This document shows, in pieces, positions 1,395 to 22,104 of a DNA stretch of 26,776 nucleotides (positions are counted from its first letter, which is position 1; each line of letters starts with the position of its first letter). This stretch comes from a virus. The stretch spans positions 1 through 26,776 of the IMG/VR virus record IMGVR_UViG_3300017989_003351. One strand, given 5' to 3'. The notes under the pieces were generated by a model, which was not told the origin of the DNA, ran no database searches, and saw only the letters and a program-made list of their open reading frames with translations. The translations under genes and the position numbers were made by a program.

Positions 1395-4300
1395 TTACTT
1401 GTACGGATTAGAACCAATCTCAAAGTGCCGCTCTAGCTTTTTAACATTCGAATAAATATCATTCTCTACAACCTCAACCCATGTATTTGGACCTGCGTTG
1501 TGAACGTGAACATTTACATTTGCCGCTTGCGGCTGGCTGTTTAAAACATTCGGGTCCAAAGAAGCATTAAAAGCGTTTAGTTGTTGCTCGCTAAATTTTT
1601 GCGTGGCAGCGGGACGCAATACAAATTCATCCTCCAAACCAACAAACATTTTTTCTCTTGGAAGCAATGACCTGCCAGTGTGTGCGGTTAACAGGCCGCC
1701 GGAATGATAGGCTTGCGATTGGTTTTCATCCCCCTTGATGGGATCGACTCCTGAAATATTTGGATCTTTAAATAAATTATCTAACTGGTTTTCCAAGTCG
1801 GCAATTTTTTTCAACGCTTCGGAAATATCCAAATCTAATTCGTACTTTGTTTCATCGAGCCAAGAGTAGGTACTTTTTAATTCTGTTAACAATAATCCAA
1901 TATTCGTTTGGGCTTCGGATATTTCAAGATTTATCTTGGCCTTTTCCAACTCGGCGCTTTCGACAAAACCATCAATATCCTTTTTTAGCAAACCAATTGT
2001 TTCAATTGCCTTGGAAATTTCAACGTTAATGCTTGCCTTTTCAATATTAGCGCTTTCTATTAATTCATCTATTTTTCTATCAAGATCATTTATTTTAGTT
2101 AGCGCATCATTTGTATCTATCTTAAATTGCATATCATTTTCTTGCATTTGCAAGAACAACGCATCTAATTGAGTTTGAAGCTCGTTTACACCTGTATTGG
2201 CCACCAAGTCAATCGCAGCATTTTCGTCTATTTCGCCACCAGCTGCGGTGAAACTTGCAACAAGATCATCCAGTGCTGTTTGAACCTCTGTAAACGCTTC
2301 GGAGTCCGGATTTAAGTCAGCAAGATAGTTTTTCATCTGCTGAATCATTGCATTGATCTGTTCATCAACATTTGTTGTGTCCAAATCAACATTAAAAAAC
2401 AACAATTGTTCAACGGCATCGTTTGCTTGTTTTAATTGTGTTTCGAATTCGGAGTGCTCGCCCATTAAAGACGACATCATTGAATCCCAAGTAAGTTGCA
2501 AGGTGGCGGCCCCACCGGTCGCAGTTTCGATGAAATTAGTTATTTCAGTAAAATCAAAATCCGAAACACCATCGTCTAAGCCGTCAATAACACTTTTTAA
2601 AAACGTAATATTGTCCATCGTGCTGTCAATGTCGATCTTGATGCTTCTGTCTTTTTGAATATAATTCGTCTGAATATCTTCAAGCTGTCTTCCTAATTCA
2701 GCCTTTTGAGACTCAATATTTGAAATGTCGACGCCTAACTGAATATCAACCATGCCTATTTCGGCAAAAAGATTATCAATAATTTCATGCTGTTCCGCTA
2801 TCTTTACCCGTGTTTTGTCAATATCGATACCGAGCTGTGCATCAATTGCGATTTTTTCAAGTTCCAAATCATCGATCGTTTTTAACTGATCACGAATTTG
2901 ACCTTGTAAGTCTTCGATCTTTATTTGCGCTTCGAGTTCAATAACCTCCCTCTTTTCATATAAACCATCAAGAGCAAGTTTAACATCGTTCAATTCACTC
3001 TTAATTGCAAGCGCTCCGCTTTGTGTATCCTGCAATTTTTGCCAAAGCTCGTTTAATTCGTCGAGCCTTTCCTTTGCGTCCTGATAGGCCTGCGAATCGG
3101 GGCTAAGTGTGGTCAAGTATTCCCGCATAGATTGAATGGACGCCGCAATCTGTTCGTCGGCGTCTGTTGTACTCAGGTCAACATTAAAGTATAAAAGCTG
3201 TTCAATCGCGCTCGATGCCGTTATAATATCTTTTTCAAATTGCGAAAATTCATCAAATACAGCTTTTGTCATATCGCCCCAGGCAATTACCAGGGCTTTA
3301 ATGGATTTAGTTGTGTCGTCAAAAGATTCCGCAACCTGGCTCTGTAAACCGGATATATATTCCTCATATTCTATCATTGCCGACATTTCAAGATTCAATT
3401 CAGCTTGCCGTTCCTGTCTTTTTTTCAACATTTCCAGACGCTTTTCTTCTGCCGCTGAGTCCTCTGCTATTTTTTTCAAATATTCTTCATAATTAATCAT
3501 AGCAGCAAGCTCTTTATTGTGCTCTCCCCTGCGTTCGGCCGCTCTTTGTTGCATCCGTTGTTGTTTCTCCAATTCTTCTGTTTCTTTGGCAATTAATTCG
3601 GCAATGTATGCTTCATAATCACTCATAGCAGCAAGCTCTCTATTGTGGTCTTCCCTGCGTTCGGCTGCCCGTGCATGAGATTCCGCCTCACCATTTATGG
3701 AATCGTTGTAATTTTCCTGGCTTTGTTTTAATTCAGCCAGTCTTACAATAGCTGCCTCTCTCTTTTCGTTAAGGGCATCCATTTGTGCCAAAATTGCGGC
3801 ATATTCTTCACCGTTAGATGCGTCATTTAGCGAATCCTCAAGAGCGTCAATTTCCTCTTGATAGCTTCCAATTGATTCCGATAGTGCCGCTATTTGCTCT
3901 GCGTATGGGGTGTAATTTATGTTGTCTGTTTGTCCACTCAACTCAAGCAAGGCCGCCCCTGCTTGTCTAATTTTCTCAGCGAGATCGGCATAAGCCTGAC
4001 TTGCTGGATCAAGAGAATCCATTAATTTTTGAGCGGCAGCAATTTCACCTTCTAATAGATATTGCAATCCCGTTGTATCCATCCCACCAAAATAATCTGA
4101 CATTTCCGAGGCTTTTTCAATCAGCACATCAAGAGACGCAATTTCAGATTGCAAGTTTTCGCTCAACACAAAACTTGATGTTAAATCTCGAAGCTGTTGC
4201 GAATATTCTTCCGCTAAAAGATAAAGATTTGCCAGCGTTGAACCTGTTGCAGTTTGCATATCCTCCATGACTGCGTTAAGCTGGTCTTGGTATTGACCGA

Positions 4301-6995
4301 TAATTTTCGAGCTAAAAGCACCGTTCATGTCCTCCAATATCGAAACGGAATCCTCAAAGGACTCGTTCGTTGTGCCAAGCATTTCTTTAACGTCACCAAG
4401 ACTACGGGAAACTTCTTCATTTTTATCTTTAAATAAATTTAGACCCATGTTAATTGCTTTTAACCCCAGCGATACAGGGTCAAAGGAGTCGGTTGCAATA
4501 TTGGTAATCATCGAAATACCCTCTTTCATTAACCCGGCATTTTTGCCACCAATATTAAAACCGTCAATAATTTCATCTAAATATGACGCATAATCAGCCC
4601 AAGACTTGCTACCGTCCCCTGTTTCATCCCGTAAGTTTTCAAGTTTTTCTTTGACTAATTCGGTTTCTTCGTTTGTTAAATCATAAAGATTTAAAGCTGA
4701 TTCAAGTTGTTCAATTTCTTTTTTGCGAGGATCTTCAAGGTCTGCCGTTATTTTCTCAAGCATTGCATATTTACTAACAAAACCTGTCATCAACGACTCA
4801 CCAGATTCCAATACAGGTTTCAACTCCTCGAAACTCGTTCTGATGCCACCAAGCGGAACGTCAGGCAATGATATTTTAATATTACCATAACTCTTAGTTA
4901 CCGCATCAAGTGCAGCTTGGTTATCGCCAAGCTTTAAATTCAAATCAATTATCTTGTCTAATAATTGACCGTGAGCAAAAGCGTCATCTTTTACGAGTGG
5001 AATTAATGCAGTATGTTCATCAATTTGCGATCTGATTTGGTCCGTAGTTTCAATGCCCAAATCTTTCAGTTTCGCAAGCAAATCACTGCGAGCATCTTCA
5101 GCAGCAGAAAGTGCGTTAGTTGATATGACCCCCGCATCGGTTGCAATATTTAAGGTCTCTTGTATTTCCGTTTGTTTTTCAGTTGTACCGCTTAATTCCT
5201 CTAACTCTTTTTTAAGCGCTGCATATTCTTGGCCCAAATCATCAACTCGACCACCGCCAAGTTTAGAAATCAAATCGCCCAAATCCCCGCCGATAGCGGC
5301 ACCAAGCCCCGCAAACGCTCCGGACGTTTCTCCGATTTTCCCTGCGAGCTCGTCCATTTTTAATTCTATCTGCTCTTTTCGTAATTCTCGATATGCAGCG
5401 GCAGCTTTTAATATATCTCCACCGTATTCAGTCATATCTACGCCAGCCTCGTCGAGCATTTTACGCAACTCGCCACCTGTGGAAATAAATTCCTCAGTTT
5501 CCTTTTTGGTTAACGTTTTCTTTTCTGCGAGTTCGGCATAACGATTTTTTAATTTCTCAACGCTCTCAACTTCATCACTGGTAGCATCAATCTCTTTAAG
5601 TATTGCCGCCCGATGTCCCTCGTACAAACTGATTGAAGCGGTAATCGCTGCGGTAATTACAGTCAACGCAATTCCAACCGGCCCCAAAGATGTCGCCCAT
5701 AATTTCTGAACTGCAATCAAACCTTTTGCGGCCGTCGCAGTTGCACCGAGACCAACAGCCAACGTTCCAAGAGTTGTAACAACGGATTGAATCGCTTCCG
5801 GATGTTCATTTAAATTACCCAGCAGATTAGACAGAACCGGATTAGTACTATTTCCCATCCCTATAAAAGCATCAGTTATGATGTTTAAGGAAATTTTTGC
5901 TTGTGATGCTAAAGTCCCAAAACGCTGCTCTGCCTCTTTTGTTAAGGCGTTGTTTTCTTCATACGCCTCTGATCCCTTTGACAGGGCATCAGAAAACAAG
6001 TCACTGGCGCTTGAGGCTCTTAAAAGACTATCCCGGAGTCTTATTTCGCTCATACCTAAATCTTCAAGCACCCCAAACACGTTGCCGCCCTCTTCTTTGA
6101 CATCTCCAAGGCCGGAAATGAACTTGGTAATAGCTTCACTGGAATCCTGACTGAAAAGATTCGCAAAACTTTCGGATGTTAATCCTGCTATATCAGCAAA
6201 TTTTTCTAAATCGCCATTGCCGGTACTTACGGCGTTGGCAATTTTAATCATTAATTTGCTAATCGCCGTTCCACCGGCTTCAGCATTCAAACCGACTGAT
6301 GACAGTGCGGCACTAAAGCCAAGAATTTCGCCTTGAGACAAACCAATCTGTGCACCAGCGCCAGCAATTCTCATTGCGAACGCCACTACTTCACTTTCAG
6401 TCGTTGCGAAATTATTCCCAAGGTCAACAACGGTTGAACCGATACGTTCAATTTGTTCAGAAGCGCTCATCCCTGCGGGGGCAACTTGTTTGGTAATATT
6501 TACAAATCTCGCAAAATCAGATGCGGCTTGTTCCGTCGTCAAATTCGTTGTAACGCCAAGTTTTGCAATGGTTTCGGTAAACAACAAAAGGTCGCTTTTG
6601 GCAATACCAAGCTGGCCACCAAGCTCGCCTATTTTATTTAGCTCGTGTACTGACTCGGGGATTTCAAAAGCGAGTTCCCTAAAACCCTCTGCAAGCGCTA
6701 AACCCTCGCTGTTCAGATTGCCAAAATCATCCCTCAACCCGTCAACGGTTTTAGTCACACCCGTGAAACTTGACTCGAATTTTACACCAGCCATAACAAT
6801 AGTAGCAAAAGCCGCCGCTCCCACAACCGCAGCAGTATTCATTGCTTTCTGGATTTGCTGGGATTTTTGTTGAGCGGTCTTATCCGCCTGATCCATACCC
6901 TTTTTAAAATCTTCATACCCGCCTATTCCCAAATAAGCGACTATATCACCAACACCCGGAGAGGATGAACTCAACATACCAGAAAAATTACCCAT
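1395..6995 (-). CDS. Phage tail tape measure protein
   Basis: At 1866 residues this is the largest gene. It sets tail length and is packed inside the tail tube, then acts in DNA ejection. The N-terminal part (about residues 75-330) has the look of the TP901-type tape measure core, with motifs such as ELGGQLGIAKSDLLLFTETI and AFAMRIAGAGAQIGLSQGEI. Hydrophobic stretches lie near residues 53-70 and 398-452. The middle and C-terminal parts are long coiled coils with internal repeats (listed separately). The ATG overlaps the stop of the upstream chaperone frame by one base (TAATG), with GGAG seven bases upstream, so the two are translationally coupled. By the usual rule of about 0.15 nm per residue, the tail would be near 280 nm. 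No peptidase or lysozyme motif was recognised. Confidence 0.95.
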   Translation of the reverse strand: MGNFSGMLSSSSPGVGDIVAYLGIGGYEDFKKGMDQADKTAQQKSQQIQKAMNTAAVVGAAAFATIVMAGVKFESSFTGVTKTVDGLRDDFGNLNSEGLALAEGFRELAFEIPESVHELNKIGELGGQLGIAKSDLLLFTETIAKLGVTTNLTTEQAASDFARFVNITKQVAPAGMSASEQIERIGSTVVDLGNNFATTESEVVAFAMRIAGAGAQIGLSQGEILGFSAALSSVGLNAEAGGTAISKLMIKIANAVSTGNGDLEKFADIAGLTSESFANLFSQDSSEAITKFISGLGDVKEEGGNVFGVLEDLGMSEIRLRDSLLRASSASDLFSDALSKGSEAYEENNALTKEAEQRFGTLASQAKISLNIITDAFIGMGNSTNPVLSNLLGNLNEHPEAIQSVVTTLGTLAVGLGATATAAKGLIAVQKLWATSLGPVGIALTVITAAITASISLYEGHRAAILKEIDATSDEVESVEKLKNRYAELAEKKTLTKKETEEFISTGGELRKMLDEAGVDMTEYGGDILKAAAAYRELRKEQIELKMDELAGKIGETSGAFAGLGAAIGGDLGDLISKLGGGRVDDLGQEYAALKKELEELSGTTEKQTEIQETLNIATDAGVISTNALSAAEDARSDLLAKLKDLGIETTDQIRSQIDEHTALIPLVKDDAFAHGQLLDKIIDLNLKLGDNQAALDAVTKSYGNIKISLPDVPLGGIRTSFEELKPVLESGESLMTGFVSKYAMLEKITADLEDPRKKEIEQLESALNLYDLTNEETELVKEKLENLRDETGDGSKSWADYASYLDEIIDGFNIGGKNAGLMKEGISMITNIATDSFDPVSLGLKAINMGLNLFKDKNEEVSRSLGDVKEMLGTTNESFEDSVSILEDMNGAFSSKIIGQYQDQLNAVMEDMQTATGSTLANLYLLAEEYSQQLRDLTSSFVLSENLQSEIASLDVLIEKASEMSDYFGGMDTTGLQYLLEGEIAAAQKLMDSLDPASQAYADLAEKIRQAGAALLELSGQTDNINYTPYAEQIAALSESIGSYQEEIDALEDSLNDASNGEEYAAILAQMDALNEKREAAIVRLAELKQSQENYNDSINGEAESHARAAERREDHNRELAAMSDYEAYIAELIAKETEELEKQQRMQQRAAERRGEHNKELAAMINYEEYLKKIAEDSAAEEKRLEMLKKRQERQAELNLEMSAMIEYEEYISGLQSQVAESFDDTTKSIKALVIAWGDMTKAVFDEFSQFEKDIITASSAIEQLLYFNVDLSTTDADEQIAASIQSMREYLTTLSPDSQAYQDAKERLDELNELWQKLQDTQSGALAIKSELNDVKLALDGLYEKREVIELEAQIKIEDLQGQIRDQLKTIDDLELEKIAIDAQLGIDIDKTRVKIAEQHEIIDNLFAEIGMVDIQLGVDISNIESQKAELGRQLEDIQTNYIQKDRSIKIDIDSTMDNITFLKSVIDGLDDGVSDFDFTEITNFIETATGGAATLQLTWDSMMSSLMGEHSEFETQLKQANDAVEQLLFFNVDLDTTNVDEQINAMIQQMKNYLADLNPDSEAFTEVQTALDDLVASFTAAGGEIDENAAIDLVANTGVNELQTQLDALFLQMQENDMQFKIDTNDALTKINDLDRKIDELIESANIEKASINVEISKAIETIGLLKKDIDGFVESAELEKAKINLEISEAQTNIGLLLTELKSTYSWLDETKYELDLDISEALKKIADLENQLDNLFKDPNISGVDPIKGDENQSQAYHSGGLLTAHTGRSLLPREKMFVGLEDEFVLRPAATQKFSEQQLNAFNASLDPNVLNSQPQAANVNVHVHNAGPNTWVEVVENDIYSNVKKLERHFEIGSNPYK
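2250..3260 (-). repeat. Duplicated module in the tape measure gene
   Basis: Two stretches, near residues 1250-1315 and 1520-1580, share the pattern (A/S)xEQLL(Y/F)FNVDL followed by DEQI, SM/QM, YL and a P-D-S-x-A/E element. Each is followed by several hundred residues of coiled coil. A weaker third relative lies near residues 960-1015 (SLDPASQAYADLAEKI). This looks like segmental duplication. Coordinates are approximate. Confidence 0.6.
3376..3671 (-). repeat. Short tandem-like repeat in the tape measure gene
   Basis: Copies at 3624-3671 and 3498-3545 encode RAAERREDHNRELAAM and RAAERRGEHNKELAAM. They differ at about 6 of 48 bases. A diverged third copy (RQERQAELNLEMSAM) lies near 3376-3420. 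The spacing is about 126 bases. The high DNA identity of the first two points to recent duplication or gene conversion. Confidence 0.7.
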
Positions 6996-7941
6996 TAACG
7001 AACTCCAACTAATCTTCCATCGGGAAGTTTAACAACCTTTTTGAACGAGCTTTTATCAGTCTGGGAACTTTCATCAGCTTTTTGAATTGCGTGTTTAATT
7101 TTAATTCCTTTTGAACGAGCGTAAAATACAAGAGCTATGTCAATTAAATTTGTAATTCGCTTTATTAAAAAATCGTGTGGCGGTTCAACTTTTAATTGTT
7201 CCTCTAATATTGCCCGTCTGTACGGGTCTTCCATATCCTGCAAAAGCTGTGGATCAAAAGGCCCGTTATAACTGTACTTTTGGGCGAGAGCGTTTTGTAA
7301 AGTCCACTCATACTCTCCCGCCTCAATTAGTTTTTTGCGTCTTCGCTCGCCTGTTCCTTCATGTTTGCGAGTTTAGCGAACTGTTCAGTCATTAAAGTGA
7401 TTAAGCCTGCGTCACTTTTTACAACCTCTTTAAACGTTTCAAGCTGGGCTGAATCCTTAAAAAGCTTTTCGTTTGTTTGCGGGTCTTTTAAGAATTCTGG
7501 AACAAGCTCAATTCCGGTACTGGAAAACGACAAACGCCTTGCAACCTGGGCCGCTAAAGATTTAGGCGGGTCCGAGTACAAAGCGGTTCTTGTTTGTTGA
7601 GCGCTTTTTTTTCGGGTTTCTATTTGTTGCCTTGTCGCACCGTTGCTTTCCATTTCAGCAAGTTCTTGCTCAACCCTTTTATCGTATGCCTTAACCTCAT
7701 CGTTCCAAGCATCCATATTGGGTTTTTCGTCACCCATGCCTTTTCTTTTGCAAACAGCGAATTCTTTTTCGTAAATCAATGTTTGCTCTCTCTTGATCGC
7801 AGAAATGTCAGGCATGGATAACTTTGCGGCAACGCCTTCTTCCGGGTTGCTGGAATCCAACGGAATGATAAACTCAACACTGTTAATGCTTCCTGCACGG
7901 GCTTTAATTAAAGCTTCAATCGTATGTTTTGGTTTGCTCAT
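6995..7941 (-). CDS. Tail assembly chaperone G-GT fusion made by -1 frameshifting
   Basis: A second frame, open from the end of the chaperone gene to the tape measure start, would be fused to it by a -1 slip at A AAA AAC (7336-7330). The fusion is 204 + 111 = 315 residues; the added part begins LIEAGEYEWTLQNALAQKYS. The extension has no good start of its own (only a TTG at 7243) and continues through YNGPFDPQLLQDMEDPYRR to PDGRLVGVR, overlapping the tape measure ATG by one base. In lambda the equivalent gpGT, made in small amounts, binds the tape measure protein and recruits tail tube subunits. The position between tube and tape measure genes is the conserved one. Confidence 0.85.
7283..7336 (-). 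promoter_or_regulatory. Programmed -1 frameshift signal
   Basis: The canonical heptamer A AAA AAC (7336-7330) sits in the right phase, with codons GCA AAA AAC and the stop TAA directly after. Seven bases further on, GGCGGGAGAG (7322-7313) can pair with CTCTCGCC (7290-7283) as an 8-bp stem with a two-base bulge and a 22-base loop. That spacing suits a stimulatory structure. Confidence 0.85.
7327..7941 (-). CDS. Tail assembly chaperone (G-type)
   Basis: The protein is 204 residues, starting MSKPKHTIEALIKARAGSIN. It occupies the slot of lambda gpG, directly upstream of the tape measure gene and downstream of the tail tube gene. Residues 45-120 are highly charged and helical (KAYDKRVEQELAEMESNGA). 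The C-terminal part ends QFAKLANMKEQASEDAKN. An AAGGA SD precedes ATG 7939-7941. Most ribosomes would stop at 7327 and make this short form; a minority would shift to make G-GT. The family assignment rests on gene order and the frameshift signal rather than on recognised residues, as these chaperones diverge quickly. Confidence 0.8.
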   Translation of the reverse strand: MSKPKHTIEALIKARAGSINSVEFIIPLDSSNPEEGVAAKLSMPDISAIKREQTLIYEKEFAVCKRKGMGDEKPNMDAWNDEVKAYDKRVEQELAEMESNGATRQQIETRKKSAQQTRTALYSDPPKSLAAQVARRLSFSSTGIELVPEFLKDPQTNEKLFKDSAQLETFKEVVKSDAGLITLMTEQFAKLANMKEQASEDAKN

Positions 7942-12384: not shown

Positions 12385-13473
12385 TTAATGGTCAATATCC
12401 AAGCAACCAATTGCGTCCTGATCAATCACGTTGTAGCTGAACCGTGTAGAAACAACAGCTTCAACAGTTTGTTTTTGAACGATGCGATCCGTTTCAGTCA
12501 TCATAACTGTGTCATTTGTGACAAGACCAATTGCGTAACGGCTATCAACACCGATAAACCGGTCTGAAGTTACAACACTTCTATCCCACTCATGCGCTTT
12601 AGCAAGAGAGATGGAAGTTTGGCCCCATTGGGCGTTTGGATTTGTCATGTCTGACATTGTATCATCATAATCAATAAGCTTTGTTTTCTTGCCAACAAAG
12701 TTATCAAGTTTGTATGGCGCTGGTAAAGCTCTATTGAAAGTGATAACGTCTTTTTTGGAAATTGTGCCGGATGTTGCAGTTGTTTTGGTTTGTGCGGATT
12801 CCAAACCGTTGCTGTTTCCATCACCGTTTAACAAAACGTAAATCATTTCGTCAGTCATGGAAATGCCGAACTGCTGCCCGACTCGCTGCAAAGCGATATT
12901 GTAAAGAGACAGCGGGCTGTCCTGGATAACTTCATAATCGAACTCCAAGATGCGACCGAACTTTGCGAGCTTTACGCTTTGTTCTGCAACGTTGATTCGT
13001 GTACGACCGAATTCAGTTGCCCGGGTTGCACGAACAAGGTTTCTCTGAACTTCCGTATCTTCCAGATAGATTTTTTTGAACTCCAAACCTTGGATAACGA
13101 TTGTTTCAGCAAGGAAAGGATCGATCAATGCAGCCATTAACTGACCGGCATAAATCCTGTTGGAAATGTATTCAGGGAAAAGAGTTGCAACGTTTGCATT
13201 CTGGAAAAACTTGCTGACGTTATCTGTTTGATAACCGTATGCACGGATCCCAAACTCACCCAACAGTTTTTCAAAATGTGTTAACGGAACTTCTTTTCCT
13301 TCTGCTTTCAGAGAGCGACGAATTGCATTTCTTTCAAGCATACATTTACCATCATAAATGGTTGGTTCCCATCCCCATTCTTTTACGGCGTGATCCTCGA
13401 TAAAAACGGAAAATGGAAGACCTTTGCTTGCGGCTTCTTGGTACATGCCGACTTCCAGGTTGATCTTTGACAT
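12385..13473 (-). CDS. Major capsid protein
   Basis: The protein is 362 residues, starting MSKINLEVGMYQEAASKGLP. It would form the icosahedral shell. Features expected of HK97-fold capsid proteins include an extended charged N-terminal arm, the segment ANVATLFPEYISNRIYAG, a central FGRILEFDYEVIQDSPLSLY helix-strand region, and an axial-domain-like stretch with a Gly/Asn loop (LNGDGNSNG). It lies downstream of protease, scaffold and decoration genes, the standard order. AAGGA lies seven bases before the ATG. The long N-terminal arm may be cleaved by the neighbouring protease; no cleavage site can be assigned. Confidence 0.85.
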   Translation of the reverse strand: MSKINLEVGMYQEAASKGLPFSVFIEDHAVKEWGWEPTIYDGKCMLERNAIRRSLKAEGKEVPLTHFEKLLGEFGIRAYGYQTDNVSKFFQNANVATLFPEYISNRIYAGQLMAALIDPFLAETIVIQGLEFKKIYLEDTEVQRNLVRATRATEFGRTRINVAEQSVKLAKFGRILEFDYEVIQDSPLSLYNIALQRVGQQFGISMTDEMIYVLLNGDGNSNGLESAQTKTTATSGTISKKDVITFNRALPAPYKLDNFVGKKTKLIDYDDTMSDMTNPNAQWGQTSISLAKAHEWDRSVVTSDRFIGVDSRYAIGLVTNDTVMMTETDRIVQKQTVEAVVSTRFSYNVIDQDAIGCLDIDH

Positions 13474-15920: not shown

Positions 15921-16415
15921 TTACATTGTTTTCTTGGCAATTTTTCGCCCAACAAATTTCAAATTTGGATATTGGCCTATCCAATGGCTTTTAATTTCTT
16001 CAACTTTCAAGTTTAGCAGTTTTGCATATTTCTCGAAAATGTCAGGCGTAAAACCTGCACAATGATAATTCCAGCTATGATCTTGATTGCCGTATATGCT
16101 GCGCATCCATTTTCCGGCATCTTCACCACTAACGATTAACTCGCAAATCGTAATCATATCCGGAACATTTAACTGTAATATACCACCCGTTTTCAATTTA
16201 CTGGTCCATATTTCCAGAACGGAAAGAGTTTGCCAATGTGGAAAATGTTCCAGAACATGATCTGCATTAATTTCGTCAACGCTGTTGTCGTTAATACCTT
16301 CCAAATAACGCACATCCAAAACCATATCAGGGTTCAAGTCTTTTTGAATATCCACGTTAATGTAACCTGGCTTTTTATCGGTGCCACAACCAAGATTTAA
16401 TTTAAGTTGTTTCAC
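15921..16415 (-). CDS. SAM-dependent methyltransferase
   Basis: The protein is 164 residues from GTG 16413-16415, chosen because CAGGGA lies nine bases upstream; it overlaps the glycosyltransferase gene by 14 bases. It carries class I methyltransferase motifs: LNLGCG (residues 6-11, SAM binding), YINVDIQ ending strand 2, HVLEHFPHW (post-II region) and LKTGGILQLNVPD. The substrate is unknown. This compact type is common in polysaccharide and glycan modification clusters, and the overlap with a GT9-like gene suggests the two act on one molecule. It could O-methylate a sugar on host surface glycans or on the virion. That is inference. Confidence 0.85.
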   Translation of the reverse strand: MKQLKLNLGCGTDKKPGYINVDIQKDLNPDMVLDVRYLEGINDNSVDEINADHVLEHFPHWQTLSVLEIWTSKLKTGGILQLNVPDMITICELIVSGEDAGKWMRSIYGNQDHSWNYHCAGFTPDIFEKYAKLLNLKVEEIKSHWIGQYPNLKFVGRKIAKKTM

Positions 16416-17283
16416 TGTACAATTTCCCTGCAAATTCTTTGATAGTTTTTAGAATACCGTTGAAATCAATTTGGCGTTTTATAAAACAATATTTTGGTGC
16501 TTTTGTGCTGGGGAACCAGTTGCTTGCTGCATAGTTCCATGCGATAACCGGCGTATTGACTGCACCTGCAACGTGTGCAAGGCCTGAATCTCTACCAATA
16601 AATAAATTGGATTTGTGAATAATATCAGCAGTTTGTTCCAAATCGGCAACACGTCTAAAGTCAACAATCTTTGCATTGTGTGGTTCGTTAAGAAATTTAC
16701 GATCTCTCCCAACGAGATAAATAAAATCCACAAAAGGCAGCTTTAATAATAAGCGAAGGATATAATCTAATTCATCTTCCAGCATGTTCTTTTCAGGAGC
16801 CTTGTCAATATTCCTTGCATGAATCGCAACGCTGAAACTCTCTACGTCTTTAATTAAAGGCTTTGCTTTAAATGGCAATGTGGGAAAATAACCCTGGCGG
16901 CCAAACGCTGCGACCTCGTTGCACAAAGAAAACCAAGTGCCGTCAATTTCTTTCTCGCCACCAACGTTACTAAAAAACACCTTGTCGAATTTTTGTAACC
17001 TTCTTTGAATATGGAATTCCTGCCAAGACTCTGCGAATAAAACAGTTTCGTCTGGATTGTCAGCTTCATACCTGTTTTTAACAACGGTTTGAATGACCTG
17101 ATCGCCTAGTGCGAAACCCATTGGTCCGAATAACGTTTTGCCGTTTTTGATATTTAATTCGTACTTGTGATCTGCGAGGATCGTTATACAATTAAGGCAA
17201 TGCCATTCGTGCTTTTCGTAAAAAGCTTTGTCCGTTGCCGGAACGTGGATCATTTTGTCGCATTTTTGGCAAAGGAAATTCAT
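16402..17283 (-). CDS. Zinc-ribbon GT9-like glycosyltransferase
   Basis: The protein is 293 residues from ATG 17281-17283, which overlaps the previous stop by one base (TGATG). The N-terminus holds a zinc ribbon with two CxxC pairs (Cys5, Cys8, Cys29, Cys32). The C-terminal domain has the donor-binding signature of the ADP-heptose:LPS heptosyltransferase family (GT9), FIGRDSGLAHVAGAVNTPVI near residues 232-250. The family moves sugars to lipopolysaccharide in diderm bacteria. Here the gene lies within a phage head module beside a methyltransferase. A zinc ribbon fused to GT9 is unusual in my knowledge. It may modify host surface sugars to block superinfection, or glycosylate virion proteins. 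Confidence 0.8.
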   Translation of the reverse strand: MNFLCQKCDKMIHVPATDKAFYEKHEWHCLNCITILADHKYELNIKNGKTLFGPMGFALGDQVIQTVVKNRYEADNPDETVLFAESWQEFHIQRRLQKFDKVFFSNVGGEKEIDGTWFSLCNEVAAFGRQGYFPTLPFKAKPLIKDVESFSVAIHARNIDKAPEKNMLEDELDYILRLLLKLPFVDFIYLVGRDRKFLNEPHNAKIVDFRRVADLEQTADIIHKSNLFIGRDSGLAHVAGAVNTPVIAWNYAASNWFPSTKAPKYCFIKRQIDFNGILKTIKEFAGKLYSETT

Positions 17284-17558
17284 CAAGCACCAAACAATTT
17301 GTCAGCTAATTTATTAAGCCAGCGAATCACTTTTGACTTGGAATAAATAAAGCCGTATAGTTTATGAAGCGGACTTTTATATTCCGGTTTAAATCTTCCA
17401 ATCGCATGTTGAACAAAATCATCTACGCACAAAATCAGGCCGAGAACAAAAACAAAGATTCCCGCTACAAATGCTTGCCAGTATGCGAGAAAACCCAAAA
17501 GCATAAAAACGAGACCAAGGTAAAAATGATGAAAACCTTTTAACGTGTGATTACTCAT
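17283..17558 (-). CDS. Two-helix membrane protein
   Basis: The protein is 91 residues, starting MSNHTLKGFHHFYLGLVFML. Two hydrophobic stretches (about residues 13-24 and 29-45) form a hairpin of membrane helices, followed by a basic cytoplasmic tail (SKSKVIRWLNKLADKLFGA). It overlaps the upstream zinc ribbon gene by eight bases and the downstream glycosyltransferase by one, so it is expressed with them. The form would suit a holin or a membrane anchor for the glycan enzymes. The His-rich start (FHH) and VDDFVQH could bind metal. No family was recognised. Confidence 0.7.
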   Translation of the reverse strand: MSNHTLKGFHHFYLGLVFMLLGFLAYWQAFVAGIFVFVLGLILCVDDFVQHAIGRFKPEYKSPLHKLYGFIYSKSKVIRWLNKLADKLFGA

Positions 17559-17773: not shown

Positions 17774-18013
17774 TTAATTAACTCCTGCTTTATTCAAATT
17801 AACTAAAAACTCTAATAGTTTATAAAGCCCGGCACCGATAGAAAAACCTCCAAAGCCAAACAGCGCCGCACGGGCTTGAAGCGTTCGGACCGTATCCTGC
17901 AATTTTTCAATCTTTGTGCTATTCCCATCAGCTTGAGCTTCAACCCGTTCAAGCAAATGCAATAAAAGACTGTAAAATTTTTGATCTTCATTAACTTTTA
18001 TTTTCTCCGCCAC
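17774..18013 (-). CDS. Coiled-coil membrane protein, holin-accessory-like
   Basis: The protein is 79 residues from GTG 18011-18013, chosen because GAAGGG lies seven bases upstream; a longer ATG form would overlap the cupin gene by 59 bases. Residues 10-45 form a coiled coil (LLERVEAQADGNSTKIEKLQ). Next is a Gly-rich hydrophobic segment (ALFGFGGFSIGAGLYKLLEF) that could span the membrane. The coiled coil followed by a single C-terminal helix recalls XhlA-type proteins that assist holins in lysis. No endolysin is present nearby, so the lysis role is only a possibility. Confidence 0.65.
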   Translation of the reverse strand: MAEKIKVNEDQKFYSLLLHLLERVEAQADGNSTKIEKLQDTVRTLQARAALFGFGGFSIGAGLYKLLEFLVNLNKAGVN

Positions 18014-18401
18014 CTGGGAACCCTTCTTCTCTGGGAATAGAAATTGCAATTAACCATGTGTCCTTTTTGGCTTTTACTTCGTGTAGTTCTTGATTGTAAA
18101 ATGACATTACATGACCTACTTGAATTTCTTTTTCGCCTTTATCAGTTTTCACAATCAACTCACCTTTGTAAACAATTAAATGCTCAATCGGTTGGTGATT
18201 ATGTAACCCAATTACAGCGCCCTCCCTAAGAAAAGTATCAGCAACGGCAATTTCCGGAATATTAATAACAGCAAAAGAATGGCACGGTCCACCCTCTTTG
18301 CACCGATAACGAAAAGCGATTTCGCCTGTTGGTACGGAACGACGACCTTCAATTTTCGTTTTCACCATATCTTTAAGCTGTTGCAGTTCTTTACTTGCCA
18401 T
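17991..18401 (-). CDS. Small cupin-domain protein
   Basis: The protein is 136 residues, starting MASKELQQLKDMVKTKIEGR. It fits cupin motif 1 exactly: His67, His69, Glu73 and a Gly seven residues on (GLHNHQPIEHLIVYKG). A motif 2-like stretch follows (GHVMSFYNQELHEV) with His107. These residues would bind one metal ion in a beta barrel. Small cupins include sugar isomerases, dioxygenases and binding proteins, and the activity cannot be told from sequence. The nearby glycosyltransferase and methyltransferase suggest a sugar-related role. A small Cys motif (RCKEGGPCHSF) precedes the barrel. Confidence 0.8.
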   Translation of the reverse strand: MASKELQQLKDMVKTKIEGRRSVPTGEIAFRYRCKEGGPCHSFAVINIPEIAVADTFLREGAVIGLHNHQPIEHLIVYKGELIVKTDKGEKEIQVGHVMSFYNQELHEVKAKKDTWLIAISIPREEGFPGGGENKS

Positions 18402-18411
18402 GTCCGGAGCC

Positions 18412-18621
18412 TTAATTCATAATCCTTGGTTTAATTATTTCCAGCATATCTCTTGTAGTAAATGCCTCGTCTGTGATCAAATTATCAATAGCACAATCGT
18501 TAACAGCTCCTTGAATTCTGAGCGAGTTGCGCCATTCCATACGGCGCAATCGACCGACAATTGCATCTCTAACGCAAGTTATTTTCTGTTTACTCTGTGC
18601 GATCGTGACAACATTTTGCAT
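18412..18621 (-). CDS. Small hypothetical protein
   Basis: The protein is 69 residues, starting MQNVVTIAQSKQKITCVRDA. It is basic and helical in the first half (IVGRLRRMEWRNSLR) and acidic after. The ATG overlaps the stop of the head morphogenesis gene by one base, and GGA lies eight bases upstream, so translation is coupled. I recognise no family. It could be a minor head protein or the first gene of the accessory block. Confidence 0.65.
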   Translation of the reverse strand: MQNVVTIAQSKQKITCVRDAIVGRLRRMEWRNSLRIQGAVNDCAIDNLITDEAFTTRDMLEIIKPRIMN

Positions 18622-20735
18622 TATAAAAGTCCGTCAATTAATAATTGGTTTCTTTGCCTGGCATCAACTCCACTATACGGATCCTCTCCCTCCCATCGTG
18701 GCTGAACCGGCTTGTCTGTGTTGAATTGCGGGTAGCGATAGCAAAGACAATTGTGAACAACAAAACCTTTAGCAATATAACTTTCGTCCTTATCGACAGA
18801 TAGGTTGTAAAGAGCGACCTCGCCTTTAGTGCTAAATTCCACATCAGAAACAGTCACATCGATAAATTCATATTCGCCAGAATGGTTTTTCAGTACCCGA
18901 CGTACCTCTTGAACGCATTGATCCACATTTCCAAGTATTTGCTCGTTATCAAAATCAAGCACGGTATAACCTTGCGATTCGATATAGTTCTTTCGTGTTT
19001 CATCGTAAGTAACGTCACGGCTCCACTGCTCGCCATTGCATTCAATAACTATATTCATTCCTGGCAATAAAAAATCGACTTTATAAAACCGATTCATTTC
19101 ACCATTCTTCCAGCAATTCCTTTTCTCAGGTCTTTTGATTATCTGCTGGCGCATAAAATTAATACCGGCTTTTTCTAACGCTTTACTAAAAAGCAACTCA
19201 GATTCAGTATTATATTTTTGTCTTGAATTGCTACTATTTGCTCTACTGCGAATATTTTTATCTGTTTGAAAATGATGCTTGCCAGACCTTACAAGTCGCT
19301 TGGTATTTTTATGGAATTCTTGTGTTAAATATTCTCCACCGTATTTTTCGACGGTATTTTTTGTATTACATTCCTGTGAACAGAAACGGGATTCTTCGCC
19401 CTTTTTGTCTCTCCAGCGGCTAAACGGAATTAATTTGCCACACGCTTTGCACCTTGTAGCAAGCAATCTTATTTTATCACCTGGCTTAATTCTTCCAGCA
19501 CCTAACCATTCTCCATTGACAAGCATAGGGTGATTATCTGTAAATGTAACGGATGCTGTGCTTTTGTTTCCGTTTTTCATATATGCAGAGTTTTTGTAAC
19601 TCACCTTTACCATTGCTTGGTTTCGCTCGTTGTGCTTATGGCAAAATGTCACTTTTCTGAATTTGCCCTTATGAGACAACACCAAATCGCCAACCTTAAT
19701 ATCTCTAATAAATCTCCATCCTGTAGATGTGTATATTTTGGTGTTCCATGTAGTACAGTGAGGATGCGAGTCGCTCACAGGTTGAGGACCTTCGTTCACT
19801 CGCCAAACTCGACCATCAAAAGCAGAGCAAATCGGACAAGCACCTCCCGCAGCAGACCACACTTCATAAACGGCGCCGGTCTGCTCTGCCATATAATCAA
19901 ATGAAACATTAACCGCTAATGTTGCCTCGCTGCGAACAAGCCTGTTCCAATACCATGCTTGGCCTTCTCCAATTGATTTATATAAGAATCGGCCAACATC
20001 CAAAGGATATGCACCGCTTTCAGCCATGCCCTGCAATGATAATAAAACATCATCCCTGTACGTTTCAGCGAGCCTTGTGGAAATTCTTTGTAGCCCGTTG
20101 TCCCGCATAGACATAGCGTATCTATTTTCGATATTAACAGGAATGCTCTGATAAAATTCATCATAGGACAATTCCGCTTTAACTTCTTCCGGAAGTGATT
20201 CGTAAAACATTTTTGCGTATTTCTGAAAAGAAGCGGTAAAAGCCTCGCTTAATTGCTGGTCGTAAATTGGATCCATTGCTCCGGCCGCCTTAGATAATTT
20301 CTTGCCAGTTAAATCCTCTGACCATTCATCCAAAATTCGATAATATGTAGCAACTCTATCAGCGGGCAATTCAAAAGTTCCCGATTCTCCACGATCACCA
20401 TTTGCGATTGCCTGGCGAATTGTTTTAGCGTCTGGAAGTTTTAGCGCTGCTAAAATATCATCGTAATATTCAAGAGCCTTTTTATAATATGCTCTGAAAA
20501 ATCTTTCATTAATTGACTGTATTTCCGGCCACCTGTGTTTTCTTGTGGCAAGATCGAGCTCAATTTCCGAGGTGCCTTTTTCCTCACATGAATGACAACC
20601 GCACTGGAATATCTTTATTGATTCCCCTGGCGGTGGAATAAGATTCGCAGGATTGACGAACAAATCAAACTCTACCAAAAGGTCGCCGTTTGGTTTTGGC
20701 GTATAGATGATATTTTTAGCAAAATCAATTAACAT
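18621..20735 (-). CDS. Head morphogenesis protein (Mu F / SPP1 gp7-like) interrupted by an intein
   Basis: The precursor is 704 residues from ATG 20733-20735 (MLIDFAKNIIYTPKPNGDLL); an upstream TTG is less likely. After splicing it would be 368 residues. The extein has the usual helical body and RSEATLAVNVSFDYMAEQTG, then a C-terminal cysteine motif (ACPICSAFDGRVW ... SHPH/CLCYRY), the hallmark of the Mu-F-like head morphogenesis family. These minor head proteins act with the portal and may enter the cell with DNA. The gene overlaps the portal by 11 bases. The intein (listed separately) splits the motif just before the Cys of HPHC, so it must be removed for the motif to form. Confidence 0.9.
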   Translation of the reverse strand: MLIDFAKNIIYTPKPNGDLLVEFDLFVNPANLIPPPGESIKIFQCGCHSCEEKGTSEIELDLATRKHRWPEIQSINERFFRAYYKKALEYYDDILAALKLPDAKTIRQAIANGDRGESGTFELPADRVATYYRILDEWSEDLTGKKLSKAAGAMDPIYDQQLSEAFTASFQKYAKMFYESLPEEVKAELSYDEFYQSIPVNIENRYAMSMRDNGLQRISTRLAETYRDDVLLSLQGMAESGAYPLDVGRFLYKSIGEGQAWYWNRLVRSEATLAVNVSFDYMAEQTGAVYEVWSAAGGACPICSAFDGRVWRVNEGPQPVSDSHPHCTTWNTKIYTSTGWRFIRDIKVGDLVLSHKGKFRKVTFCHKHNERNQAMVKVSYKNSAYMKNGNKSTASVTFTDNHPMLVNGEWLGAGRIKPGDKIRLLATRCKACGKLIPFSRWRDKKGEESRFCSQECNTKNTVEKYGGEYLTQEFHKNTKRLVRSGKHHFQTDKNIRSRANSSNSRQKYNTESELLFSKALEKAGINFMRQQIIKRPEKRNCWKNGEMNRFYKVDFLLPGMNIVIECNGEQWSRDVTYDETRKNYIESQGYTVLDFDNEQILGNVDQCVQEVRRVLKNHSGEYEFIDVTVSDVEFSTKGEVALYNLSVDKDESYIAKGFVVHNCLCYRYPQFNTDKPVQPRWEGEDPYSGVDARQRNQLLIDGLL
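18750..19757 (-). mobile_element. 336-residue intein with zinc-finger and PD-(D/E)XK-like nuclease regions
   Basis: It covers precursor residues 327-662. Splicing signs: Cys1 with block A (CTTWNTKIYTSTGWRFIRDI), block B with TDNH (intein residues 73-76), block F (VALYNLSVDKDESYIAKGF) and the terminal VVHN followed by Cys+1. A Cys4 cluster lies at intein residues 103, 106, 126 and 130. A NUMOD-like basic segment lies near 140-180. A nuclease-like region (about 183-290) shows Glu186, VDF (Asp228), IECNGEQW (Glu239, Asn241) and GYTVLDFDNEQIL, the pattern of DUF559/Vsr-like folds rather than the usual LAGLIDADG endonuclease. It is probably a homing element. Nuclease activity is inferred. Confidence 0.9.
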
Positions 20736-22104
20736 TATTAAAAACCTGTGCAAGCTTTGCAGCTTTAATCATCTTTGCTCTATCGGACATTCGCTCTAGA
20801 AATTTTTCACGTCCCATATTTTTTATAGTTTTTTCGTTTGCCATTCCTGTTACAATCGCCCATTCAACAACATCTTCATCTGCCACAAATCCAGTCATCC
20901 AAGCGTTGAGACGTGATTCCAATTCTTTGGCTTCTGCGGCAGCGTTTAAGTGCCTGGCCTTTGCTTCTTCTACCAAGTCCAGTAAGTTGACCGGCTCCCA
21001 CTCGATGGAGAATTTTGCGTTAGTGTAGCCTTCAAGAATTAAAAAAGTCCCGATAATTTCTTCAATGATGGGTGTTAGGTACGTTCGGTAGGTTGTAATA
21101 TCACTAATCAACATATCAGATTGCAACTTGCTCATTTCCTGACGGTTAGACCAGTTCTTCAAAGAAAACATAAAGTCTGGAAGGCCCGTTCTGGTAACGA
21201 TGTTTTCCATAATAATATCATGCGGCCATTGCATGTCAAATATAACACCGTCTTTTCCAAGCACCTCAACACGAACACTGCCACCCGCAGGAGCGCCACC
21301 CAAAACGTCTTCTACTTGTCCGGCCTTTCTTTTTTGGAAAGCTGTTTTCAGGTTACTCCCTAAACCGTTCAGCGCTTCTTTTACATCTGCGTATTTAGAA
21401 TTAGGACCGCCTTCAACAATACCTAAAAACGTAGGATCACCGATTCGCCACAAACCGTTGTCAATTGCGTTCGTCATACGAACGAATAACTGGGCGATAA
21501 ACGGCAACGAGTAAAACATGCTCAATCCCTGGGGGTGTCCGTCTCTAAAATCAAAGCCAAGGTATTGAACATATCTGGAATCTAAATTAACCGGCACAAC
21601 ATGATTGTCTTGCATTTGACCGAATGTTAAATTTCCGTCGTCCTTTTTTACAAAACGCATTGTGTTCGCTTTGGGGATGGCTAACCGGTCAACGCCATTG
21701 AGCGAGCGAGTAGGGACAACTTCAACAAACCCCATACCTTTAGAGAATGCAGAATCGCACATTTGCCACATTGCAGAATGAAAACCTTTGTGGAAGTGAC
21801 CAACTTTTACTTCCTTCATAAAATATTCAATCGCATCTTTAACGGCATCATTTCCGTTTGTTTCTATGCGATAATCGCCAATGAGTTTGACAAGTTTTAA
21901 TACTGCAATATCTAAAACTGGAATCGCTTCACGGATAAAGTCATATAAATCCATATTGTACTTCATGGGAATATAACCGTTAAGCGCTACCTGAAAGGGA
22001 GACTGCCACGTCTCACGAACCTGGGACGTGACAAGGGATTTCTTTTGCTGGGGTGTTAAATAACTGCGGATATTTTGAGCTAATAAAGAAAAAGGGTTTT
22101 GCAT
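20725..22104 (-). CDS. Phage portal protein
   Basis: The protein is 459 residues, starting MQNPFSLLAQNIRSYLTPQQ. It would form the dodecameric ring at one vertex through which DNA passes and on which the head assembles. Typical features are the alpha/beta body, the clip-like central region (FDFRDGHPQGLSMFYSLPFI), the TGLPDFMFSLKNWSNRQEMS segment and a long C-terminal helical region rich in Ala, Glu and Lys. The length is normal for the family. AGG lies seven bases before the ATG and is inside a 7-bp hairpin (22111-22140). The head morphogenesis gene follows with an 11-base overlap. The terminase genes that usually precede the portal are absent from this window. Confidence 0.9.
   Translation of the reverse strand: MQNPFSLLAQNIRSYLTPQQKKSLVTSQVRETWQSPFQVALNGYIPMKYNMDLYDFIREAIPVLDIAVLKLVKLIGDYRIETNGNDAVKDAIEYFMKEVKVGHFHKGFHSAMWQMCDSAFSKGMGFVEVVPTRSLNGVDRLAIPKANTMRFVKKDDGNLTFGQMQDNHVVPVNLDSRYVQYLGFDFRDGHPQGLSMFYSLPFIAQLFVRMTNAIDNGLWRIGDPTFLGIVEGGPNSKYADVKEALNGLGSNLKTAFQKRKAGQVEDVLGGAPAGGSVRVEVLGKDGVIFDMQWPHDIIMENIVTRTGLPDFMFSLKNWSNRQEMSKLQSDMLISDITTYRTYLTPIIEEIIGTFLILEGYTNAKFSIEWEPVNLLDLVEEAKARHLNAAAEAKELESRLNAWMTGFVADEDVVEWAIVTGMANEKTIKNMGREKFLERMSDRAKMIKAAKLAQVFNNVN

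Follow-up and report, generated by a model that had tools for sequence, protein, structure and literature searches.

In a phage minor capsid gene we identified an insertion that is very probably a contiguous class-1-type intein carrying a homing-nuclease module, the nuclease itself probably being impaired. The gene lies on a 26.8 kb viral contig from IMG/VR, the whole of which (26,776 nucleotides) was analysed and is here called the window. A minus-strand open reading frame (ORF; 18621-20753) runs as one continuous frame of 710 codons and encodes a precursor of the MuF/SPP1 gp7-like minor capsid type (18621-20735, minus strand) that has 704 amino acids when counted from ATG and 710 when counted from an upstream TTG. 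Residues 333-668 of this precursor constitute the intein and map to 18750-19757 (minus strand), giving 336 residues from C1 to N336, exactly where a first-pass annotation of the sequence had placed them. The N-extein (19758-20735, minus strand) ends ...CPIC...SDSHPH and the C-extein (18624-18749, minus strand) begins CLCYRYPQ with Cys+1. The computed spliced product, from ATG, has 368 amino acids, the length predicted in that annotation. The two intein halves share the one 710-codon ORF, so a fractured (split) layout is absent from the window, and no long antisense or out-of-frame ORF lies within the window intein, the longest other open run being 88 codons.

Host gene, insertion motif and splicing domain

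Homologues on other viral contigs align along the whole host protein at 33-48% identity (the N-extein was aligned with L003, L004, L006, L007 and L008) and keep an invariant CxxC...DG...W...GP...HPxC motif. Direct profile matches are weak: taken by itself, the window protein hits SPP1 gp7 (TIGR01641) with E 0.011, and the relatives L003 and L007 match Phage_Mu_F with 0.0026 and 1.2e-4, all below the cut-offs. The gene nevertheless sits in the order expected of a MuF/SPP1 gp7 gene, directly downstream of a portal protein gene (20725-22104, minus strand; phrog_30703, 4.5e-52) and ahead of a major head protein gene (12385-13473, minus strand; phrog_3922, 3e-47), and L003 also has a portal-like gene upstream of its MuF-type gene. 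The assignment as a minor capsid gene is therefore based on relatives and gene order. Between the minor and major capsid genes the window also carries a glycosyltransferase-9-like gene (16402-17286, minus strand) and a cupin-like gene (17991-18401, minus strand); by eye, glycosyltransferase-like and methyltransferase-like ORFs occupy the corresponding interval of L003.

The insertion falls at HPH|C, just before the final cysteine of the CxxC...HPxC motif, which we infer to bind metal in the host protein. Comparison of junction DNA places the insertion identically in every homologue compared, and the homologous host proteins of L004, L005 and L014 are uninterrupted: the empty codon is read as HPFCRC in L004 and HPHCLC in L014, the L005 protein being the same as that of L004. 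An insertion exactly at HPHC, as first proposed, is thereby confirmed. No close intein-free allele of the window phage was found.

The window intein holds the complete set of class 1 splicing residues, C1, T73-x-x-H76, H335 and N336 followed by Cys+1, in agreement with the earlier claim that all splicing blocks and both flanking cysteines are visible. The N-terminal splicing region (19464-19757, minus strand) contains C1 and TDNH at residues 73-76, and the C-terminal region (18750-18869, minus strand), ending ...YNLSVDKDESYIAKGFVVHN, is matched by the intein_Cterm profile with E 5e-7. An AlphaFold model of the intein has a mean pLDDT of 71.9, with the splicing parts mostly at 84-92, and it superposes on the splicing domain of the Mtu RecA intein (2in8) with Z 17.8 and 1.8 A over 130 residues spanning residues 1-336; the predicted fold is thus that of a HINT splicing domain. 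Taken together, the intein_Cterm match, a DUF559 match of 3.9e-12 within the insert and the relatives that share its insertion point place the identification as an intein far beyond chance, and the intein likely splices. When the intein sequence alone was used as the query, no relative was returned among viral contigs, and its relatives were found only through extein queries and alignments. In a scan of genome contigs the sole matches were distant inteins located in genes of other kinds; of these, the two that were inspected (L048 and L049) are LAGLIDADG-like by eye.

The nuclease module and its relatives

Full-size inteins are mostly regarded as carriers of LAGLIDADG or HNH endonucleases. In the window intein neither domain, nor a NUMOD, is matched in Pfam up to E=1, so that a NUMOD-like segment proposed from the sequence was not borne out; by eye, an NNPM/HNPM-type segment occurs only in the longer relatives L006 and L008. 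Instead, the core of the insert (18879-19205, minus strand), in which E187, D228, E239 and D248 are present, is Vsr/DUF559-like. DUF559 (PF04480) matches precursor residues 556-621 with E 3.9e-12 and 46.5 bits against a cut-off of 20.6, and a profile that combines the window with four relatives matches two chains in the PDB, 3hrl (4.4e-11) and I-Bth0305I (3r3p, 2.1e-6). A separate model of residues 98-302 recovers the nuclease fold, with Z 13.1 to 3hrl, 12.1 to 3r3p and 9.6 to Vsr (1cw0), relating the core by fold to both I-Bth0305I and Vsr. Sequence profiles and structure models thus support the central claim of the first-pass annotation, namely that a phage head gene carries an intein whose nuclease is DUF559/Vsr-like. 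Its observation of E-x-N in place of E-x-K corresponds to E239-C240-N241. A plasmid search matched only DUF559 domains.

Upstream of the core lies a Cys4 segment (19368-19451, minus strand), C103-x2-C106...C126-x3-C130, whose four cysteines, already noted in the first reading, are invariant across five sequences. It is presumed to be a zinc-binding module that contacts DNA. The linker that joins it to the core (19206-19367, minus strand) has no family match and is likewise presumed to bind DNA. Most of the linker has pLDDT below 50, the Cys4/linker region as a whole models at under 50-60, and the separate model is also of low confidence there, so that no known fold is assignable to this part. 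PHROG family 9529 covers the Cys4 segment and the nuclease jointly (precursor residues 433-623, 2.2e-8), which indicates that the combined module exists outside the host gene too.

The codon that receives the intein varies greatly in its occupancy. In addition to the empty alleles, nuclease-free inteins of 137-147 residues occupy it in L007 and in two more distant homologues, L043 and L044, and inteins with an in-frame nuclease occupy it in L003, L006 and L008. In L003, the nearest relative, the nuclease core carries a deletion of ~40 residues and a frame change (7620-7860) that breaks the capsid frame, leaving the intein end in a different frame from the intein start; this may be real decay, an assembly error or frameshifting. 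The scattered pattern of occupied, nuclease-free and empty sites is as homing would produce. The arrangement is also found in a second gene, since a phage contig of 195 kb (L042, 3677-5383) encodes a uracil-DNA glycosylase with an in-frame Cys4 plus DUF559 intein at a cysteine codon, whose best-matching segment shares 31% identity with the intein of the window.

Comparison of these inteins suggests that nuclease modules have been swapped among related splicing domains, with one type in the window, L003 and L042 and another in L006 and L008. In its splicing domain the window comes nearest to L006 (64% identity, against 38% to L042), whereas in its nuclease it is nearer to L042 (46%, against 28% to L006). 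A quartet analysis of the nuclease strongly groups the window with L042 and L006 with L008 (AU p<0.001 for the other topologies). However, the corresponding quartet of the splicing domain rejects no topology, and fast divergence of one lineage would fit as well, so that we regard the case for exchange among same-site inteins as evenly balanced.

Position 246 and homing by the window copy

A feature absent from the first-pass annotation bears directly on nuclease activity. Directly after a conserved tryptophan the window has Ser246 (codon AGC, 19020-19022, minus strand), where all four in-frame relatives (L003, L006, L008 and L042) have histidine. Phage SA1 also has W-H at the corresponding position. 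The histidine of this W-H motif is catalytic in Vsr, and the window nuclease lacks it at the place expected for EDxHD/Vsr-like homing endonucleases. To turn a histidine codon (CAC or CAT) into this AGC, two or more bases must change, which is more than one sequencing error would account for. The window nuclease is accordingly viewed as probably impaired through loss of a likely catalytic residue. With this substitution, and with the nuclease of the nearest relative broken, homing by the window copy is doubtful.

According to the model that we favour, the splicing domain would excise itself after translation, through attack by Cys1, transfer to Cys+1 and cyclisation of Asn336, and would join HPH to CLC to yield the 368-residue capsid protein. 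As the predicted metal-binding motif is interrupted by the intein, the unspliced protein would be non-functional and selection would keep splicing intact. The Cys4 segment and the Vsr/DUF559-like core would together form a homing endonuclease module, an active copy of which would cut intein-free alleles of the capsid gene during mixed infection, with repair copying the intein in.

It is conceivable, if distinctly less probable, that the window nuclease has kept its full activity and that the intein actively homes. Ser246 could be tolerated if other side chains or bound water act, as in PD-(D/E)XK-type sites; the frame is intact, the remaining acidic residues are kept, and DUF559 proteins place their histidine one residue earlier, not at exactly position 246, which renders the importance of this position uncertain. 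Against this stand the W-H motif in all four in-frame relatives and in phage SA1, and the broken nuclease of L003. We consider it unlikely that the inner domain is instead retained for a role other than homing, for example regulation of splicing or binding of DNA or capsid. The frame has stayed open although some active-site residues may be lost, as such a role would predict, but the same-site inteins of L007, L043 and L044 have no inner domain, which makes it dispensable for splicing, and the relatives of the domain are nucleases. MuF proteins can bear extra effector domains and PT-HINT is among the weak Pfam matches (E 2e-4, below cut-off), yet a non-splicing autoprocessing domain of the BIL or hedgehog-like kind in a capsid-linked polymorphic protein is highly improbable, given a full intein C-terminus with HN|C followed by a homologous C-extein, the existence of uninterrupted homologues and the finding of no additional domain.

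Coding arrangements at the equivalent site and known systems

An intein with an impaired Vsr-like nuclease, the reading that we prefer, has several partial counterparts. I-Bth0305I, an EDxHD homing enzyme, is intron-encoded (PMC3943268), and a divergent group of EDxHD homing enzymes resides in phage group II introns (PMC12350094). The window nuclease resembles I-Bth0305I in its profile and in the fold of its catalytic domain (2.0 A over 94 residues at the Z score given above) but lies within an intein frame and has serine for the likely catalytic histidine. The DUF559 protein NGO0050 (3hrl) shares the nuclease core, yet is a single small domain, whereas the window core is inserted in an intein and accompanied by a Cys4 segment. 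The phage ShiLan contains an element that is likewise an in-frame phage insertion with a homing endonuclease, but its HNH is hidden out of frame and it was not identified as an intein (PMC11855218), whereas the window nuclease is in frame.

As far as checked here, Vsr-like homing nucleases have been linked to introns and to split inteins of the fractured kind. In the fractured genes attributed to Dassa et al. in 2009, a free-standing Vsr-like endonuclease gene is said to lie between the halves of a split intein; such loci likewise combine a phage intein with a Vsr-like endonuclease, but the window intein is contiguous and its nuclease in frame. No description of an in-frame DUF559/Vsr intein was found in the literature searched. 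This gap is filled by the in-frame copies seen in two phage genes that are unrelated, one for a capsid protein and one for a uracil-DNA glycosylase. The in-frame Vsr-like variant is thus newly described, although of a known kind, in a host gene already known to carry inteins. On this last point the earlier suggestion of a new host gene did not hold: inteins are present at the equivalent cysteine in MuF-like minor capsid genes of the Gordonia phages Nordenberg, Lennon, Sitar, Thing3, Barsten and SchottB and of the Vibrio phages 1.265.O and 1.266.O.

These inteins share the type of host gene and the insertion cysteine with the window but differ in their nucleases. None of those read (Nordenberg, Barsten, 1.265.O and 1.266.O) shows a nuclease in frame. 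Nordenberg and the two Vibrio phages instead have an ORF of 236-246 codons nested antisense within the intein, and the sense frame of the Vibrio inteins is uninterrupted. The antisense ORFs of the Vibrio phages (2636-3373, minus strand, in 1.266.O and 2657-3397, minus strand, in 1.265.O) match DUF559 above the cut-off, at 1.9e-10 and 7e-13. That of Nordenberg (3112-3822, minus strand; 236 codons) has no Pfam match and a LAGLIDADG-like segment by eye. Antisense Vsr-like genes are also nested in the MuF-gene inteins of L028 (2945-3823, minus strand; MTES_1575 7.5e-9, HTH_7 1.4e-8) and L018 (4364-5173, minus strand; MTES_1575 1.7e-5). Both are unrelated environmental phages, and the L028 nuclease has clear helix-turn-helix domains.

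In all five of these cases the antisense codons share one register with the sense codons. In that register a stop on the sense strand appears in the antisense gene as a TTA, CTA or TCA codon, and all five genes are free of these three. Judged from background codon use, such an absence would arise by chance with a probability of 10^-6 to 10^-9 for the Vibrio phages, with the GC-rich ones giving weak evidence. It is required if the intein is to stay open, which supports the use of both the sense and the antisense frame but does not prove expression.

Further arrangements occur at sites of this type. In L046 an N-terminal half (3308-4276), an HNH ORF (4295-5122) and a C-terminal half (5035-5451) lie in separate frames, a fractured version at the same type of site. 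In L016 an ATGA stop-start overlap (1931-4480 / 4477-5187) divides the MuF-gene intein ahead of an HNH gene, and the C-terminal intein half comes after the HNH domain; L017 gives the same match, and L016 is a possible natural split intein.

On balance we lean towards the view that the HPxC cysteine codon of MuF-type genes is a hub for inteins, found empty, with nuclease-free inteins, and with in-frame, antisense and split or fractured nuclease arrangements, and that antisense nesting has gone unrecognised. The antisense-nested nuclease arrangement may be new, although part of it may be covered by a preprint of 2025 that deals with 'non-canonical architecture' in actinobacteriophage inteins. 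Of the results, we regard the variety of coding arrangements at this single site as the most interesting. It makes the gain and loss of endonucleases by inteins directly testable; if the antisense nesting is real, it would be a plausible step in the capture of endonucleases by inteins. In a different gene, the helicase-gene intein of Corynebacterium phage phi673 encloses an out-of-frame ORF (2132-2770, plus strand) with a Cys-rich segment and a DUF559 match of 1e-11.
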